Shown: positions 31,549 through 38,178 of the stretch, in pieces | Position numbering within the stretch: position 1 is the first letter of the stretch | Layout of the letters: each line of letters opens with the position of its first letter | DNA from: Fidelibacterota bacterium | Lineage (GTDB): Bacteria > Pseudomonadota > Alphaproteobacteria > Rhodospirillales > Rhodospirillaceae | Length of the DNA stretch: 64,000 bases | Assembly (NCBI GenBank): GCA_945903705.1 | Contig: CAMDOZ010000001.1 | Coordinates: forward strand, 1-64,000 | Direction of reading: 5' to 3' | The notes under the pieces: generated by a model | The model's database searches: none | What the model saw: only the letters and a program-made list of their open reading frames with translations | Told to the model about the DNA's origin: nothing | Translations under genes and position numbers: made by a program

Positions 31549-32790
31549 TTAGGCCTTCGCGAGTTCCGAGACGCTGCGGGGTGCGTGCTTGGCTTCCGGT
31601 TCGCGACGAACGTCGAGCGCGATCGCCAACCACTCGGCGGCCTTATCCGAATCCCCGCGTTCGCGCGCCTCCACTTCCGCCATGAGTCGCGCGGCGCGCG
31701 CGCGTACGTCGGGTTCGATGTCTTCCGCCGTCAGCGGCGCCAGGCGATTGCGCGCCTGACCCCAAAGCTCGGCATCGAGCGACGCCCGCGCCACCGCGAG
31801 ACGCGTCTCGGGATGATCGGCGTCGATGCGCGCAAGATTGTCCACACGGCGTGCCCAGTCGAGCGCGGATTCGCCGGGAATGAGGACACGGTAAGCCGCG
31901 GCCAGGTCCGCATGCGGCGTCTCGCCCCACGCTTTCTCGACAAGATGCGCGGCCTTGCGGCCCTTGCCCTGCGCCGCCATGGCACGGGCATAGGCGGCCG
32001 TAGCCGCGACGGGCGCTCCGCCAAGATCGATGGCTTGCTTCGCAAGCGACGAAGCATTTTGCGATTCGCCGTTCTTCACGTCGACTTGCGCCTGTTGAAG
32101 AAGCAGTCGCGTCTTGATGCGTATGAAATCGCTCTGCGCAAAGGTTTCCTTGGCGATTCTCGTATCCATTAAAGCAAGGGCGTCGCGCCATAGGCCGGAT
32201 GCGATCGCAAGGTCGAGCGCCATCTCGATGGCCCAGGCGGGAGCATCCTTGCGGGCCAGCGCGCGTTTCGCGTGATTGAGTGCGCCCACCGTATCGCCGT
32301 CGGCCGCCGCTTTGACGGCAAGCGAGCGCAAGCCGGAAAGCTCCGTCTGCGGCCGCGCGAGAAGCGCGGTCGCGGCTTCCTTCATTTCCTTCACGTCGCC
32401 GACCAGTTCCGCCGTTTCCTTGCGAAGCATCAGCACCGCAGGATTGGACTGGAGCAAGGAGGCCGCTTCTTTTGCAAACCGCCGCGCGGCATTGCTCTGA
32501 CCCGATTGCACGGCGGCAAACCCATCGGCGAGACTGGCGAGGCCACGGTTCAGGCGCCGCTCGCGCCGCGCGGCGGCAAGGGCTTGCATGGCGCCGCTAA
32601 TGACCGACACGCCGCGCAACACGAGCGCGGTCAACAGAACCGCGACGATCATCAACGCGACAAGAACGCTTGCGGACGTATCGACACGCCAGCCGCGCCA
32701 CTCGAGCGCCACCGACCCCGGTTCGTTGGCGAGCCATACGGCCCCCGTCACCAGAAGAGCAAGTCCGACCACATAGAGGAGGAGGCGCAT
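31549..32790 (-). CDS. hemY: HemY-family TPR membrane protein
   Basis: A 413-residue HemY-type protein of the heme locus (not the protoporphyrinogen oxidase of the same name in Bacillus). Two N-terminal membrane helices (LLYVVGLALLVTGAVWLA and VLVALMIVAVLLTALVL) are followed by the HemY_N region with RRERRLNRGLASLADGF, then helical TPR-like repeats to the end. The function is not established; it usually follows hemD or mic60. It starts 3 bases after the HemD-Mic60 fusion gene, so the two are surely co-transcribed. Confidence 0.92.
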   Translation of the reverse strand: MRLLLYVVGLALLVTGAVWLANEPGSVALEWRGWRVDTSASVLVALMIVAVLLTALVLRGVSVISGAMQALAAARRERRLNRGLASLADGFAAVQSGQSNAARRFAKEAASLLQSNPAVLMLRKETAELVGDVKEMKEAATALLARPQTELSGLRSLAVKAAADGDTVGALNHAKRALARKDAPAWAIEMALDLAIASGLWRDALALMDTRIAKETFAQSDFIRIKTRLLLQQAQVDVKNGESQNASSLAKQAIDLGGAPVAATAAYARAMAAQGKGRKAAHLVEKAWGETPHADLAAAYRVLIPGESALDWARRVDNLARIDADHPETRLAVARASLDAELWGQARNRLAPLTAEDIEPDVRARAARLMAEVEARERGDSDKAAEWLAIALDVRREPEAKHAPRSVSELAKA

Positions 32791-32793
32791 GCG

Positions 32794-35700
32794 CTACTCC
32801 GCCGGTGGCGGCGGCGCCGCCGGCGCGCTGGGCGGAGCGCCGAGCGCCGTCGTGCCGGCGATGACGGATTGCTGCGCTGTCTCTTCGGCCGCAGTGCGCG
32901 CTTCGGCGAGAGCGATCCAGTCGCCCGCGGCTGCCAGGGAAGCGCCCGTCAGTTTTTTCATTTCCGCGATGGCGCCGGGTAGGTTGTTCGCGTCTACGGC
33001 CCGCTCGGCCCGCACCAGCACCGCTTCGATATCATCGCCTGTATCGACGTCGGTGCGCCGGATGGTCACCACCGAGAACACCCGGTCCAGTACACGGCGC
33101 ACCCAGCCGGCTGTTTCGTTGGGCAAGTAACTTGCGCGAGTGGCCGCCGCTGCCGCGGCATCGAATCTTCGCTGCAGGTCAGCGAGCGTCGGAAGACCGG
33201 TGCTTGCGTACTTCGCAAAGATGGCGTCCGTTGCCGTGTTGCCCGTCAAAGCTTTCACCGTGTCCCACTCCTTTAGGAAGGGCCGGCCCATGACGACGGC
33301 CTCGCGCCATTGCGTGGCCGCGATGGTCAGGGCGACCGCGGCGGCCCGAACATCGGCCGCGCTCTGCGCACCGCGCTCGATGGCCGTGACGCGATCTGCG
33401 AGTGCAAGCACGCTGCTCGCGTCGACGCTCTTACCCTCGAGTGACTCCACGCGGCGATTGACCTCGGTAAGGCTCGCGGTGTTTCCCAGCGCGGCTTCGA
33501 GAGTGGCGACTCTCGCCATCAGGGCGGCGAGCGCCTGATTGGAGAGCGCGCTGTCCGCGCCTGCTGCGGGCTGCACGGTTTGCGGCGGCGCCGTAGGCAC
33601 GGGGGTCAGCACGGGCGCCGGAGCCGGAGCTGTGGGTGCTGCAACGGGAGGTGCCGGTTTGACTTGCGGCGCGGGCGCGCTTGCAACCGGCGTCGGCGCC
33701 TCGTTCGTCACCAGAGGCAGCCAGCGCTCCGATGTCATCATGAGAGCGGTGGCGATGGTGGCCAGCACAAAGAAAAGCGCGATGGTGCGACCTGGTCCGC
33801 GGCGGCGTGCCGGAGGCGCGGTCATCGTCTCGGGAACGGGTTCAGCGATTGGCTCAGGGTCGCGCGGCGGCGTTGACTCGGACGCGGATTCGCCCCGGCC
33901 CCAGTTCTTGAGACGGTCGCGGGCACGATCGTCCGCCGCGTCTTCCACCAGCATTCGCGCGGAACGTCCGCCGCCGCTGCGCGCCGCGGGCTTCGCATCG
34001 GCAAGGGACTCAGAGGGTTCAGAGAGTTCGTGAGGACGGTGCGCGGCGTTGTCGCGCTCCACGAGGTCATTCAGCTCGAGGAGTGCCAGCGGTATACGCG
34101 AGATCAGCGATTCGTCCCCCGCCTTAGGCGCAGGCGCGGCCGGCGGCTCCGGCGTTTCGTTGCTATCGCGGATCGGATCGGTCATTGGCCTATCATTCCA
34201 TGAGGACGGGGCGGAGGCTACCGCCGCCGACGTGGGAGGTGGGGGCTCGTCATGACTTACAACCATGGTCCAACGGGGATCGGCGGAGGATTCGCGCGCA
34301 GCGGCACTTGCTCCTCCGAACCATGACCCTAGACGCGAAGTCCAGCCGGGCGTGGGTGGCTGCTCCGCGCGGAGGCGGGCCTTCTCGGCTCTTGCGGCGG
34401 CCTTCTCTTCTTCGGCAAGGCGCTTACGTTCGGCCTTCGCCTTGGCAGCGCCCTCCTTTTCCTGCCGGCTCCGTTCCGCTTGCTCCTCTGCAAGACGCTC
34501 TTGCTCCGCGCGTTGCCGCGCCGCGTCTTCGCGCCGGGCCTGGTCCTCGCGCGCTTTTTGCGCCGCCGCTTCTTCGCGGGCGATCCGCTCGCGTTCGGCT
34601 TCCACAGCAGCTGCTTCCGCCTTGATGCGGTCGCGCTCCGCCTTCTCCTGAGCCTCGCGCTCTCTTTCTAAACGTACCGCTTCCGCACGGGTTTCATTTT
34701 CGATGCGCTCGGCCTTCGCCCGTTGTTCGCTCTCGATCCGCGCAGCTTCGGCGCGCTTTTCTCTTTCGAGACGTTGCGCTTCGGCCTCGATACGTTCAAC
34801 CTCCGCACGCTTTTCCTGTTCAATGCGACCCGCTTCGGCGCGCTCGCGGGCAATCCTGTCTCTCTCCGCCTGGAGGCGTTCGGATTCTTCCTGGGCGAGG
34901 CGCTCCTTCTCCAGGCGTTCCTTCTCGCGCTCCTGGAACAGGCGCTCCTTCTCGATGCGAACGCGCTCGGCTTCTTCACGGGCGACCCGCTCTCTCTCGA
35001 AGCGTTCTCTCTCGCGTTCCTTGAGCAGTCGTTCCTTCTCAGCGCGAACACGCTCCGCGTCTTCGCGGGCGATTCGCTCTTTCTCTTCCCGCTTCTTCTC
35101 CCACGCCTCGCGCTCGATTTTCTCCCGCGCGATCCGTTCCGCATCGAGCCGATCCCGCTCGGCTTTCTCGGCGGCCACGCGCACGCGTTCGGCTTCCATC
35201 CAGATCACTCGTTCGGCGGCCAAACGCTGACGTTCCGTTTCATCCCGCGCCGCTTTTTCCCGCGCGTGCTGTTCACGTTCGGCTTTCTCGAAGGCGGCGC
35301 GCTCGAGGGCGATGCGCTCTTTCTCGGCGCGGTCACGCGCATACTGTTCAGCGCGCAGGCGGTCCTGTTCCACCCGCTCCGCCAGCAGACGCTCTTCCTT
35401 CTCCTTGCGCAGGCGCTCATGCTCCGCGCGCTCCGCGGCGAGGCGTTCCTTCTCCAGTTTCTGGCGGGTCGCTTCTTCCGCTTTCGCGCGTTCCCGTTCT
35501 TCACGCTCCTGATTGGATCGTAACCGCTCGGCCTCCTCCTGCGCCGCACGCACCTCTCTTTCGACGCGCGCCGCCTCTGCGCGCTCGGCGGCAAGACGTT
35601 CCTTCTCCACTTTCGCGCGTGCGGCGTCCTCGGCCGCGACGCGTTCTCTTTCCGTGCGTTCTTTTTCACGCTGCTCGCGTTCAGCCTGCTCACGTGCTGC

Positions 35701-37062
35701 GCGCACCTCTTTTTCGACGCGCGCCGCTTCGGCGCGCTCGGCTGCAAGGCGCTCCTTCTCCGCTTTCGCGAGGGAGGCGTCCTCGGCCGCGACGCGTTCT
35801 CTTTCCGCGCGTTCTTTTTCACGCTGCTCGCGTTCAGCCTGCTCACGTGCTGCGCGCACCTCTTTTTCGACGCGCGCCGCTTCGGCGCGCTCGGCTGCAA
35901 GGCGCTCCTTCTCCGCTTTCGCGAGGGAAACCTCCTCGGCCTTGATGCGCTCTCGTTCCAGACGTTCTTTTTCGCGCTTTTCACGCTCCGCCTGCTCGCG
36001 GGCGGCGCGCTCGGCTTTGATCCGATCGCGCTCGGCGTTTTCCCGCGCCAGCTTTTCGGCGCGCTCGCGTTCGTCCTGTTCGCGTTTCTTGCGCGCCTCT
36101 TCCGCGCGAACGCGTTGCTCTTCCTCGCGGGCGATGCGTTCGAGCTCGGCTTGTTCCGCGGCGGCGCACGCCGCGGCCGCCCGTTCCGCTTCGATCCGCT
36201 CCCGTTCGTTGCGCTCGGCCTCCGCCTTCTCCCGCGCGAGGCGCTCGCGTTCCTCCTGCTCTTTGCGCCGTCGCTCCTCTTCGGCGCGGCGGCGATCCTC
36301 TTCTTCCTTCGCCTTGCGTTCGCGCTCTTTGCGTTCCTCTTCGACCTTGTCGATGAGATCGCCCTCAAGGGTCGCCCATACGCTGTCGGGATCGCTCGCT
36401 GCGGCAACGGTGATGCTGGCGCCTTTCAGCGCGCGCAAGGGTGCCGCGACGGCCGGCGTTGCGGTCACCGTCTTGAGTCCGGCGACGGGCGGCGCCGTTT
36501 CGTCCCGCTGGATCAGGGTTACGAAGGCGCGCGCTTCGTCGGGCGACATGAACAGCGCGACGTCGATCGCCTTGCCGGCCAGCTTTTCACGCAGTTCGCG
36601 CGGAATCTCGAGGACGCGTTTGATGCTGTAGAGGGGAAGCGCCCTCACGGCGAAGCCCATGTTCCCGAGCATCGCCGGCAGATTGACCGGTGCGGCGGTG
36701 CTGCAGGCGTAGATCAGCGCGCCGTTCGAAGGTTTCAGCGTGCGCTCCACAAGGCGCGCGAGGTCCTGGGACTCATCCTTCGCCGCCAGAACCTCCTTGA
36801 AGCCGACACGGCGCGCTTCGGCGGCCGTCAGATCGCTGTCCACGAAAATTGGAAAGGTACGCACACCCACATGCTCGGCCAGCGCTCGGACTCCTTCCGA
36901 ACTCGTGGCGAGAAAGGCTTGCGCGTTCGCGAGGTTGATCTGAGGCGCGGTTTCGCGCTCGACGGTGACCAAAGGAATCGTGATGGGTTCATGGCCGCGG
37001 GCCGAAAGCGCCCTCGCCGAGATCGCGGCTTCCGGTGCCGGCTGAGAGATCAGAACCCGCAT
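32794..37062 (-). CDS. HemD-like / charged helix / Mic60-like fusion protein
   Basis: A 1422-residue protein combining functions usually split in two. Residues 1-~238 follow uroporphyrinogen-III synthase (HemD): MRVLISQPAPEA, TSSEGVRALAE and DVALFMSPDEARAFV. Residues ~240-900 are almost only Glu, Arg, Lys and Ala in helix-compatible order with internal repeats. A Pro-rich linker and one membrane helix (GRTIALFFVLATIATALMM, ~1090-1112) lead to a periplasmic C-terminus with a heptad segment (VATLEAALGNTASL) and a Mic60/mitofilin-like helical end (WVRRVLDRVFSVVTIRR, then AERAVDANNLPGAIAEMKKL). Alphaproteobacterial mic60 normally sits as its own gene between hemD and hemY; here hemY follows by 3 bases. 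HemD activity is plausible but unproven. Confidence 0.85.
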   Translation of the reverse strand: MRVLISQPAPEAAISARALSARGHEPITIPLVTVERETAPQINLANAQAFLATSSEGVRALAEHVGVRTFPIFVDSDLTAAEARRVGFKEVLAAKDESQDLARLVERTLKPSNGALIYACSTAAPVNLPAMLGNMGFAVRALPLYSIKRVLEIPRELREKLAGKAIDVALFMSPDEARAFVTLIQRDETAPPVAGLKTVTATPAVAAPLRALKGASITVAAASDPDSVWATLEGDLIDKVEEERKERERKAKEEEDRRRAEEERRRKEQEERERLAREKAEAERNERERIEAERAAAACAAAEQAELERIAREEEQRVRAEEARKKREQDERERAEKLARENAERDRIKAERAAREQAEREKREKERLERERIKAEEVSLAKAEKERLAAERAEAARVEKEVRAAREQAEREQREKERAERERVAAEDASLAKAEKERLAAERAEAARVEKEVRAAREQAEREQREKERTERERVAAEDAARAKVEKERLAAERAEAARVEREVRAAQEEAERLRSNQEREERERAKAEEATRQKLEKERLAAERAEHERLRKEKEERLLAERVEQDRLRAEQYARDRAEKERIALERAAFEKAEREQHAREKAARDETERQRLAAERVIWMEAERVRVAAEKAERDRLDAERIAREKIEREAWEKKREEKERIAREDAERVRAEKERLLKERERERFERERVAREEAERVRIEKERLFQEREKERLEKERLAQEESERLQAERDRIARERAEAGRIEQEKRAEVERIEAEAQRLEREKRAEAARIESEQRAKAERIENETRAEAVRLEREREAQEKAERDRIKAEAAAVEAERERIAREEAAAQKAREDQARREDAARQRAEQERLAEEQAERSRQEKEGAAKAKAERKRLAEEEKAAARAEKARLRAEQPPTPGWTSRLGSWFGGASAAARESSADPRWTMVVSHDEPPPPTSAAVASAPSSWNDRPMTDPIRDSNETPEPPAAPAPKAGDESLISRIPLALLELNDLVERDNAAHRPHELSEPSESLADAKPAARSGGGRSARMLVEDAADDRARDRLKNWGRGESASESTPPRDPEPIAEPVPETMTAPPARRRGPGRTIALFFVLATIATALMMTSERWLPLVTNEAPTPVASAPAPQVKPAPPVAAPTAPAPAPVLTPVPTAPPQTVQPAAGADSALSNQALAALMARVATLEAALGNTASLTEVNRRVESLEGKSVDASSVLALADRVTAIERGAQSAADVRAAAVALTIAATQWREAVVMGRPFLKEWDTVKALTGNTATDAIFAKYASTGLPTLADLQRRFDAAAAAATRASYLPNETAGWVRRVLDRVFSVVTIRRTDVDTGDDIEAVLVRAERAVDANNLPGAIAEMKKLTGASLAAAGDWIALAEARTAAEETAQQSVIAGTTALGAPPSAPAAPPPPAE
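35435..36046 (-). repeat. 153-bp tandem repeat in the charged helix region
   Basis: Units start at 35435, 35588, 35741 and 35894, each 153 bases apart (51 codons), and so keep the reading frame. The units at 35588 and 35741 are nearly identical over most of their length; the outer two are diverged after about 35 bases. The encoded repeat includes AEKERLAAERAEAARVEKEV. This indicates recent in-frame duplication inside the helix. Confidence 0.85.
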
Positions 37063-37122
37063 GGCCGATTCCTGGCGTTCATACGGGAAAGGTTGTAGAG
37101 CCTACGTTATAGAGTGAAAAGC

Positions 37123-38178
37123 ATGATTGTCCTCGGGCTTGAAACCAGTTGCGACGAAACCGCCGCCGCCGTCGTGAACACGGACGGAAAGGTGCTCGCG
37201 CATGCGGTCTTGAGCCAGATCGAAGAGCACGCGGCCTTCGGCGGCATCGTACCCGAGGTGGCGGCCAGAGCTCATCTCGCTCATCTCGATCGCCTGATCG
37301 CCAAGGCCATGCAGGACGCCGGAATCGGCTTTGCCGGCCTCGCCGCGGTCGGCGCGACCGCCGGGCCCGGCCTCATCGGCGGCGTCCTTGTGGGTGTGAT
37401 GTCGGCCAAGGCCATCTCGGCCGTTCACAAGATTCCCTTCGTTGCCGTCAACCATCTCGAAGGCCACGCTTTGACCGCCCGCCTCACGAACAAAGTGGAG
37501 TTCCCGTTCCTGCTCCTCTTGGTCTCGGGCGGGCACTGTCAGTTGCTCGCCGTCGAAGGTGTGGGACGCTATCGCCGCCTCGGAACGACCGTGGACGATG
37601 CGGCCGGAGAAGCCTTCGACAAGGTCGCGAAGATGATCGGCCTCGGCTACCCGGGGGGACCGGCCATCGAGCGCGCCGCGCTCAAGGGTGATCCGGCGCG
37701 CTTTGCCTTCACGCGCCCCATGAAGGGAAAACCGGGTTGCGATTTTTCGTTCTCCGGACTCAAGACGAGCGTGCGCGTGGCCGCGGAAGCTTTGCCGCCG
37801 GGATCTCTCAGCGAAAAGGACGTGAACGATCTTGCCGCGTCGTTCCAGGCCGCGACCGTAGAGTCTATCGGCGACCGGGTGCGCCGCGCTCTCGAGACGT
37901 TTGCCGAGTCTTACGGCGGACGCACGCTGGTGGTCTCGGGCGGCGTTGCCGCCAACACCGCGCTTCGCGCCGAACTCCAATCGCGTGCGCGTGTGGCGGG
38001 TTTTGAATTCGTGGCGCCGCCTCTCGCACTCTGCACCGACAACGCGATCATGATCGCCTGGGCGGCGCTCGAGCGGCTGCAGCTCGGCCTCGTGGACAAT
38101 CTCGATTTCAAGGCGCGGCCGCGGTGGCCGTTGGATCCGACGGCGCCGCCCGCTAGAGGCGCCGGAGTGAAGGCCTAA
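37123..38178 (+). CDS. tsaD: tRNA N6-adenosine threonylcarbamoyltransferase TsaD
   Basis: TsaD transfers the threonylcarbamoyl group from its AMP ester to A37 of ANN-decoding tRNAs, with TsaB and TsaE. The 351-residue protein shows [16 protein letters not shown] at the start, the metal-binding [12 protein letters not shown] (two His), [32 protein letters not shown] and the late [13 protein letters not shown]. The ATG at 37123 is chosen over a GTG at 37114 because the conserved strand begins at once. Divergent from the HemD-Mic60 gene across 60 bases; its stop overlaps the convergent epimerase by 4 bases. Confidence 0.97.

Follow-up and report, generated by a model that had tools for sequence, protein, structure and literature searches.

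A Mic60 gene carrying a diverged HemD-fold head on a long charged arm in a clade of Rhodospirillaceae

A single minus-strand gene at 32794-37062 of a 64,000-nucleotide stretch of Rhodospirillaceae DNA (assembly GCA_945903705.1, contig CAMDOZ010000001.1, positions 1 to 64,000; here called the window) joins a uroporphyrinogen III synthase (UROS; HemD) fold to a mitofilin (Mic60) region through a charged arm. We consider it roughly an even bet that the gene encodes a Mic60 variant in which a pseudoenzyme UROS-fold head is carried on a rigid cytoplasmic strut made of a single helix. The heme-enzyme job of the fused head seems to have been lost, or to be no longer its main role, and it is therefore less likely that the arm anchors heme synthesis than that it is a structural extension of Mic60.

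A first-pass annotation of this DNA had described an uninterrupted frame of 1,422 codons with a HemD-like start and a Mic60-like end, about 660 residues made of E, R, K, and A, a membrane helix near residues 1090-1112, and hemY 3 bases further on. All of these elements were recovered. The open reading frame (ORF) listing and the translation gave a single uninterrupted frame from ATG to stop (1,422 aa), which encodes, in order, the UROS/HemD fold, the E/R/A/K arm, a spacer, one membrane helix, a Pro/Ala-rich piece, and mitofilin. The features are as follows.

36358..37062, minus strand: HemD/UROS-fold head, residues 1-235 (Pfam HEM4, AlphaFold2 [AF2], and Foldseek)
34348..36357, minus strand: E/R/A/K arm, residues 236-905, a probable single alpha-helix (composition, charge pattern, no heptads, no Pfam match)
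35549..36010, minus strand: tandem 153-bp (51-aa) repeats within the arm, 3.0 copies, 89% match
33787..34347, minus strand: Pro/Ala/Ser-rich spacer, residues 906-1092 (187 residues; composition, no Pfam match)
34183..34185, minus strand: ATG960, a relic or actual internal Mic60 start (Met conserved, no Shine-Dalgarno-like stretch)
33898..33978, minus strand: conserved motif GGRSARMLVEDAADDRARDRLKNW, within residues 1029-1055 (27/29 clade Mic60 frames, 0/31 others)
33730..33786, minus strand: membrane helix, residues 1093-1111 (hydropathy; AF2 helix over residues 1090-1119)
32884..33537, minus strand: mitofilin (Mic60 C-terminal) region, residues 1176-1393 (Pfam Mitofilin; phmmer to 7pv1)
31549..32790, minus strand: hemY, a tetratricopeptide repeat membrane protein (Pfam HemY_N, E = 1.5e-15; start 3 bases past the fusion stop)
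37114..38178, plus strand: tsaD, divergent (listed start 52 bases from the fusion ATG; hemC missing between the two)

The HemD-fold head and the second HemD

Pfam HEM4 matched residues 16-228 of the protein (E = 8.9e-22, above the curated cutoff). The first-pass annotation had proposed structure prediction of both ends, and this was informative for the head, for which AF2 gave a UROS fold (residues 1-240; predicted local distance difference test [pLDDT], 89.1; predicted template-modeling score [pTM], 0.82); the Mic60 end gave a mediocre model (pLDDT, 73.4; pTM, 0.52) for which Foldseek returned no PDB match at an E value of ≤0.001. Foldseek matched the head model to solved UROS structures, with 4es6 as the best (TM score, 0.82) and 3re1 as a further named fold counterpart; phmmer with the head alone gave no match in the PDB.

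The head was used to search 60 relatives (61 genomes including the window's own), 59 of which matched; the clade comprises the window genus and, within its family, genera g2, g3, g5, g7, g9, and g18. The loci then retrieved did not include the HemD loci of G037, G092, G093, and some other listed genomes. A second HemD, of a lineage different from that of the fused HemD, overlaps hemB on contig 92 of the window genome, and hemC, gone from the fusion locus, is on contig 9. The second HemD of G019 and G022 lies inside a hemC-hemD-hemB cluster, and 33 of the 38 clade genomes had at least two HEM4 matches when fragments are included. After removal of HemD hits shorter than 180 aa (fragments of G011, G035, G064, and G066), a tree of 92 rows was built, the bootstrap of which was not fully settled. 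In this tree, the 32 rows of fused HemD grouped as a single clade (100/100), nested within ordinary alphaproteobacterial HemD at the end of a long stem (0.94), and 22 of the 23 second-HemD rows formed a clade of their own outside the fused one, with the 23rd (G088) apart on a long branch. A third HEM4 protein (117 to 129 bits) was also seen (G001:C23, G006:C146, G009:C48, G011:C5, G017:C54, and G088:C326); those of G006, G011, and G088 were placed far from both other HemD types.

Ordinary (34 rows), second (22 rows), and fused (32 rows) HemDs were compared after three D3 rows and the G088 L174 row had been dropped. Eighteen columns are conserved in both ordinary and second HemDs. Ordinary HemDs retained 13 to 18 of them (median, 18) and second HemDs 15 to 18 (median, 17), scores that are high partly by construction because the columns were picked on these two groups, and fused HemDs retained 4 to 12 (median, 9). 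The window head was changed at R7, V75, G76, D127, R175, S202, and P223, and both V75 and R175 were replaced by D or E in 32 of 32 fused HemDs. The same picture emerged from eight positions chosen without the second HemDs and aligned to the enzymes 4es6 and 3mw8 (R7, P8, S54, V75, G76, Y145, S173, and S202; invariant in ordinary HemD and present in both structures). Second HemDs kept each of the eight at a frequency of 0.82 to 1.00, and fused HemDs kept only Y145 at ≥0.9; the corresponding window residues are Q, P, S, D, S, Y, S, and T. Moreover, fused HemDs have near-invariant residues found only among themselves (e.g., H24, F50, and R178), and the ratio of nonsynonymous to synonymous substitution rates (dN/dS) of the HemD part was 0.08 to 0.11 between the window and its near relatives, suggesting that the fused HemD is under a new constraint. 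The NCBIfam equivalog cutoff (223 bits) was rejected as a test for a pseudoenzyme, since five ordinary control HemDs also fell below it (125 to 142 bits; window head, 93.8; second HemD, 37.9).

Two relatives were informative with respect to heme synthesis. In G024 (99% complete), no match was found for hemB, hemC, hemE, hemH, or a second HEM4 (thresholds, E = 1e-10 for hemC, 1e-5 for hemE, and 1e-8 for hemH). The fusion of this genome is one frame of 1,281 aa, with a HemD dN/dS of 0.09 to 0.13 to its siblings and a divergence no larger than that among the siblings themselves. Because the fusion is intact where heme genes went undetected, the head appears to be kept without heme synthesis. In G064 (98% complete), hemB, hemC, hemH, and a second HEM4 were undetected (hemE was searched in eight other genomes only), and the HemD part is broken (L186:2926-3674) into three frames by two frame changes, with one TAA. 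The absence of several scattered heme genes all together in two genomes is less easily explained by assembly gaps. Intact HemY accompanies Mic60 in both G064 (L186:5440-6690) and G024 (L055:1223-2473), neither of which has detectable hemB, hemC, or hemH; the role of HemY in these genomes is probably not heme synthesis. A URO-D (hemE) match was absent from G019, G022, G024, and G035, although G019 has hemB, hemC, and hemH.

Several observations weigh against a head that has given up its enzyme job. The window head retains 11 of the 18 enzyme-HemD columns, including Y145, S54, and S173, so that residual enzyme activity is possible, and it outscores the second HemD by Pfam (82.4 versus 71.6 bits), so that it is we who infer that the second HemD is the enzyme. 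A preferential loss of catalytic columns in fused HemD was considered and rejected, since the fused majority differed at 9 of the 18 shared columns and at 12 of the 31 columns conserved only in ordinary HemD. Heme genes also went undetected in a patchy manner elsewhere in the clade (hemE and hemH in G022; hemC, hemE, and hemH in G035; hemH in G065), and single absences may therefore be assembly gaps. Finally, because Mic60 is intact in G064 and HemD is broken, Mic60 can live without the head, which is dispensable in that genome.

The kept residues and the higher Pfam score, together with an intact UROS fold, a HEM4 match above the cutoff, and the finding that the fused HemD is the only HEM4 in short-fusion outgroups (see below), would be expected if the head had kept UROS activity and its attachment to Mic60 membrane sites served to localize or channel heme synthesis, with the second HemD as a spare or serving another tetrapyrrole branch. 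We consider this distinctly unlikely in view of the seven changed residues, the D or E at positions 75 and 175 throughout the fused HemDs, the departure of hemC from the locus, the 15 to 18 columns kept by second HemDs (partly chosen on them), the overlap of the window's second HemD with hemB, and the retention of the fused head in G024. The proposal of the first-pass annotation that a heme-pathway enzyme is tethered to a membrane-curvature protein was thus not supported for the window gene, given its second HemD at hemB, its lost residues, and the head kept under purifying selection in G024; heme tethering by the window copy is the less likely role.

A HemD-Mic60 fusion as such is common in the order and is not unique to the window clade. 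The outgroup locus set comprised 33 genomes outside the clade (11 of the family and 22 of the order). HemD and Mic60 were in one frame of 552 to 938 aa in 14 of the 33 (8/11 of the family and 6/22 of the order), with three genomes in which no Mic60 frame was recognized by profile (G057, G058, and G059) counted as not fused. In all 14, the fused HemD was the sole HEM4 above the cutoff and is thus very likely the enzyme; tethering of a sole HemD may well be true for such short fusions elsewhere in the order. hemC was located between tsaD and hemD in 27 of 27 readable outgroup genomes (6/33 were not readable).

The charged arm and its constraint

The arm (residues 236-905; 670 aa) is 78% E/R/A/K (E, 28%; R, 22%; A, 20%; K, 8%), compared to 33 to 41% in the flanking parts and in the neighboring HemY and TsaD. 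At the i,i+4 spacing, it holds 207 opposite-charge pairs and 27 like-charge pairs, versus about 120 of each in shuffles. Pro and Gly occur only at 745, 871, 902, 903, and 905, and no Pfam match was obtained with the two arm halves or the spacer. A conventional coiled coil was rejected because there was no heptad enrichment (a/d occupancy, 0.241 versus 0.235 in shuffles); the hendecad occupancy of ILVMFWY was barely higher than that of shuffles (0.227 versus 0.209). The charge pattern without heptads fits a single alpha-helix of the ER/K type. ER/K single helices have a persistence length of about 15 nm, and at this value, the arm, with a contour length of 100.5 nm, would have a root mean square reach of about 51 nm. 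The length of about 100 nm first put forward therefore stands as a contour length and not as a mean reach.

Across the clade, the distance from HemD to the membrane helix was 51 to 876 aa; in the measured g1, g3, and g9 genomes, which have E/R/K/A arms, it was 560 to 876 aa. The arm is (EP)n in G091 and G096 and Pro/Glu-rich in G024 and G067. The G091 arm (L180:1839-4370) is a long run of Glu-Pro repeats, to which the run in the TonB spacer is comparable. G066 has an E/R/K/A arm (L187:3-3632) unlike the Pro/Glu-rich arms of G024 and G067, which belong to the same genus, and arm type is therefore exchanged rapidly, changing even within a genus. Directly past the arm in the window protein is a Trp/aromatic, amphipathic-looking stretch, PGWTSRLGSWFGG (window 34300-34350; residues ~905-920), which could touch the membrane; Trp-containing stretches resembling PGWTSRLGSWFGG were seen in several relatives.

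The tandem repeats and the variation in arm length and type would also be expected if the architecture were mostly nonadaptive, that is, a low-complexity arm grown by slippage and a slowly decaying HemD remnant, with the working product being a short Mic60 made from an internal start, for which 11 of the 17 closest genes carry a signal (see below). Passive growth is a serious rival, albeit one that we hold to be unlikely. HemD decay in G064 and the frame breaks in G009, G011, and G017 are in keeping with it. Counting against the strut reading, the arms of G022, G094, and G095 are short (51 to 128 aa) with the head still present, so that the head can persist on a short arm. The genus comprises 19 genomes with the window's own. 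Thirteen of them have a whole fusion frame, three (G010, G013, and G018) have a contig that stops inside the gene, and three are interrupted, G009 and G017 within the arm and G011 within HemD. The 13 whole frames, together with an arm dN/dS of 0.15 to 0.16 in two of three window/near-relative pairs (the third pair has saturated synonymous sites), indicated that the charged arm is translated and constrained. This constraint, that on the HemD part, and an arm charge pattern far from that of shuffles all argue against passive growth. In five pairs of relatives, arm indels of at least 5 residues (7, 8, 10, 11, 18, 22, 51, 62, or 80 residues) fell mostly near whole helix turns and thus tended to keep the helix phase, in a test whose assumption of independent indels does not hold. 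Moreover, the window genome itself has no recognizable internal Shine-Dalgarno sequence.

That an assembly or frameshift artifact joined neighboring genes is hardly credible. The source is draft and MAG (metagenome-assembled genome)-like, the arm is repetitive, and contigs end inside the gene in G010, G013, and G018; a pattern search of the named collection gave 42 matches, and the 26 that encode relatives are all in MAG or uncultured-bacterium assemblies, labeled Rhodospirillaceae, Candidatus Marinimicrobia, and others. The search of relatives that the first-pass annotation had advised nonetheless recovered the same architecture, whole in 13 of 19 genus genomes and present in other genera too, with conserved synteny and in-frame constraint. 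Since many genomes share the fusion, the artifact was rejected as an account of the architecture; single genomes could still need correction. We think that the opposite-strand ORFs across the fusion region are products of sequence composition.

Membrane helix, mitofilin region, and internal start

Only one 19-residue window of the whole protein had a mean hydropathy of at least 1.6 (start at 1093; 1.98, with the next best at 1.24), and it coincides with the membrane helix. The mitofilin region was matched by Pfam (residues 1176-1393; E = 9.7e-18; 64.8 bits versus a cutoff of 27.4), and phmmer matched the solved MIC60-MIC19 structure 7pv1 (E = 5.1e-5). RRRGPGR lies directly before the membrane helix and, by the positive-inside rule for the orientation of such helices, would place the mitofilin region in the periplasm. 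The charged part should accordingly be cytoplasmic, the side that had been expected for it. The cytoplasmic N terminus of Mic60 is usually short; in this respect, the window protein departs from the Mic60/mitofilin family, with 1,092 residues ahead of its membrane helix.

Before the membrane helix, 27 of the 29 clade Mic60 frames carry a stretch holding EDAAD (E ≤ 6.1e-7; the exceptions are G022 and G094), and none of 31 other Mic60 frames does (best E = 0.34), by a profile built from 24 of its 27 positive frames. The clade-specific pattern, GGR[AS]AR[LM]xxEDAAD, is kept while the arms change. It also persists in G064 despite the decay of HemD.

A strong Shine-Dalgarno core with ATG, GTG, or TTG, 70 to 125 codons ahead of the membrane helix, was found in 11 of 17 g1 and g9 genes (the closest genomes). 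The expectation after synonymous shuffling was 3.2 (maximum, 7; 0/300 as high), and the count in other windows was 9/208. The usual form is AAGGAA followed, after 3 to 9 bases, by GTG and once by ATG; the start of G012 (one of the 11) is at another place, and at the common place in G026, GTG is preceded by a weaker CAGGAA. Those 11 relatives probably make a short Mic60 besides the long product, and given this signal, a single product is unlikely there. On the opposite side of the balance, other groups showed no excess (2/11 and 4/14), and in the window genome, no recognizable Shine-Dalgarno sequence precedes ATG960, the Met of which is kept in G000, G002, G005, and G012 (shared with the window's three near relatives).

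Proposed role and relation to known systems

From the tree and synteny, the ancestral state would have been an ordinary HemD-Mic60 fusion. A second HemD near hemB would then have taken over heme synthesis, and the original HemD, locked to Mic60, would have diverged under new constraint while the linker grew into a strut. This strut, with a contour of about 100 nm, would hold the head at the cytoplasmic face of the inner membrane and would be followed by the spacer with the EDAAD motif, the single membrane helix, and the mitofilin region in the periplasm. The mitofilin region of known Mic60 oligomerizes and bends the membrane. Mic60 might thus sit at curved membrane with the strut pointing into the cytoplasm, where the head or the EDAAD motif would bind a partner or keep a distance; since the N terminus of Mic60 should face the cytoplasm, the arm would radiate outwards from the membrane neck. 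In most of the closest genomes, initiation at the internal start would probably add a short Mic60 of the ordinary kind, so that an oligomer could contain both forms. We think that a spacing or partner-binding strut is the most likely role of the arm. A fuller version, which we regard as possible but doubtful, is that a captured heme-enzyme fold, metabolically replaced, is now the head of a cytoplasmic strut of 50 to 100 nm that gives Mic60 necks or clusters a spoke, which spaces them from or binds another cytoplasmic structure, with the density of spokes governed by the long and short Mic60 made from the single gene. In some relatives, (EP)n or Pro/Glu arms may serve the same purpose. Photosynthetic membranes were rejected as the reason for the architecture, since reaction-center matches were found in 11 of 73 family genomes and in 0 of the 38 clade genomes.

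The fused gene can be compared to several known systems. Myosins VI and X carry ER/K single alpha-helix spacers, with which the arm shares dense i,i+4 opposite charges, few hydrophobic residues, and no heptads; the window arm differs in being 670 residues long, on a bacterial membrane-shaping protein, and its helix is a predicted one. The head shares the fold and the HEM4 profile of UROS/HemD (4es6 and 3re1) and differs from these in its changed R7, V75-G76, R175, and S202, in its fusion, and in the presence of a second HemD in the genome. Fused HemD/HemX (NCBIfam PRK06975) is likewise a HemD followed by a membrane protein; the partner in the window is mitofilin and not HemX, and PRK06975 gave E = 0.39 and 9 bits on the window head (cutoff, 414), with the full protein not among its matches. 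We know of no long arm in fused HemD/HemX. PDB 9i49, which we take to be a B12-dependent mutase/UROS-domain protein and which may be an earlier case of the fold being reused, has a UROS-like domain in an unrelated fusion (HemD-profile match, E = 1.8e-5), without Mic60 and without an arm.

In alphaproteobacteria, PMC7641849 describes tsaD opposite a hemC-hemD-IMMP-hemY operon, in which IMMP is Mic60 as a separate gene and is termed a diverged homologue of both HemX and mitofilin. The window gene shares with this operon Mic60 the mitofilin domain, one membrane helix, the site before hemY, and the position opposite tsaD; it differs in that Mic60 is not its own gene but is fused to a diverged HemD via the 670-aa arm and in that hemC is gone. 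The loss of hemC is a less telling mark of a displaced enzyme than it might be, since PMC7641849 reports that hemC is also missing from the locus in Rhodobacteraceae. Bacterial Mic60 is discussed in PMC12136173 and PMC9764997, and in PMC12631773, Mic60 tetramers are proposed to bridge tubulated membrane. No mention of a HemD-Mic60 fusion was found in the partial texts that made up the literature searched, and absence from print is not claimed. A photocobilin with uroporphyrinogen III synthase, which would be a precedent, gave no match in the literature search.

The clade provides a set of natural experiments, comprising fusion, probable HemD replacement, loss of detectable heme genes in genomes that retain Mic60 and HemY, and decay of HemD beside an intact Mic60. 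These cases suggest that the Mic60-HemY pair is independent of heme synthesis. The reason why mic60 travels with heme genes bears on the origin of cristae. The strut, if real, would give the Mic60 family a novel cytoplasmic extension and would, in our impression, rank among the longest single helices proposed in bacteria.

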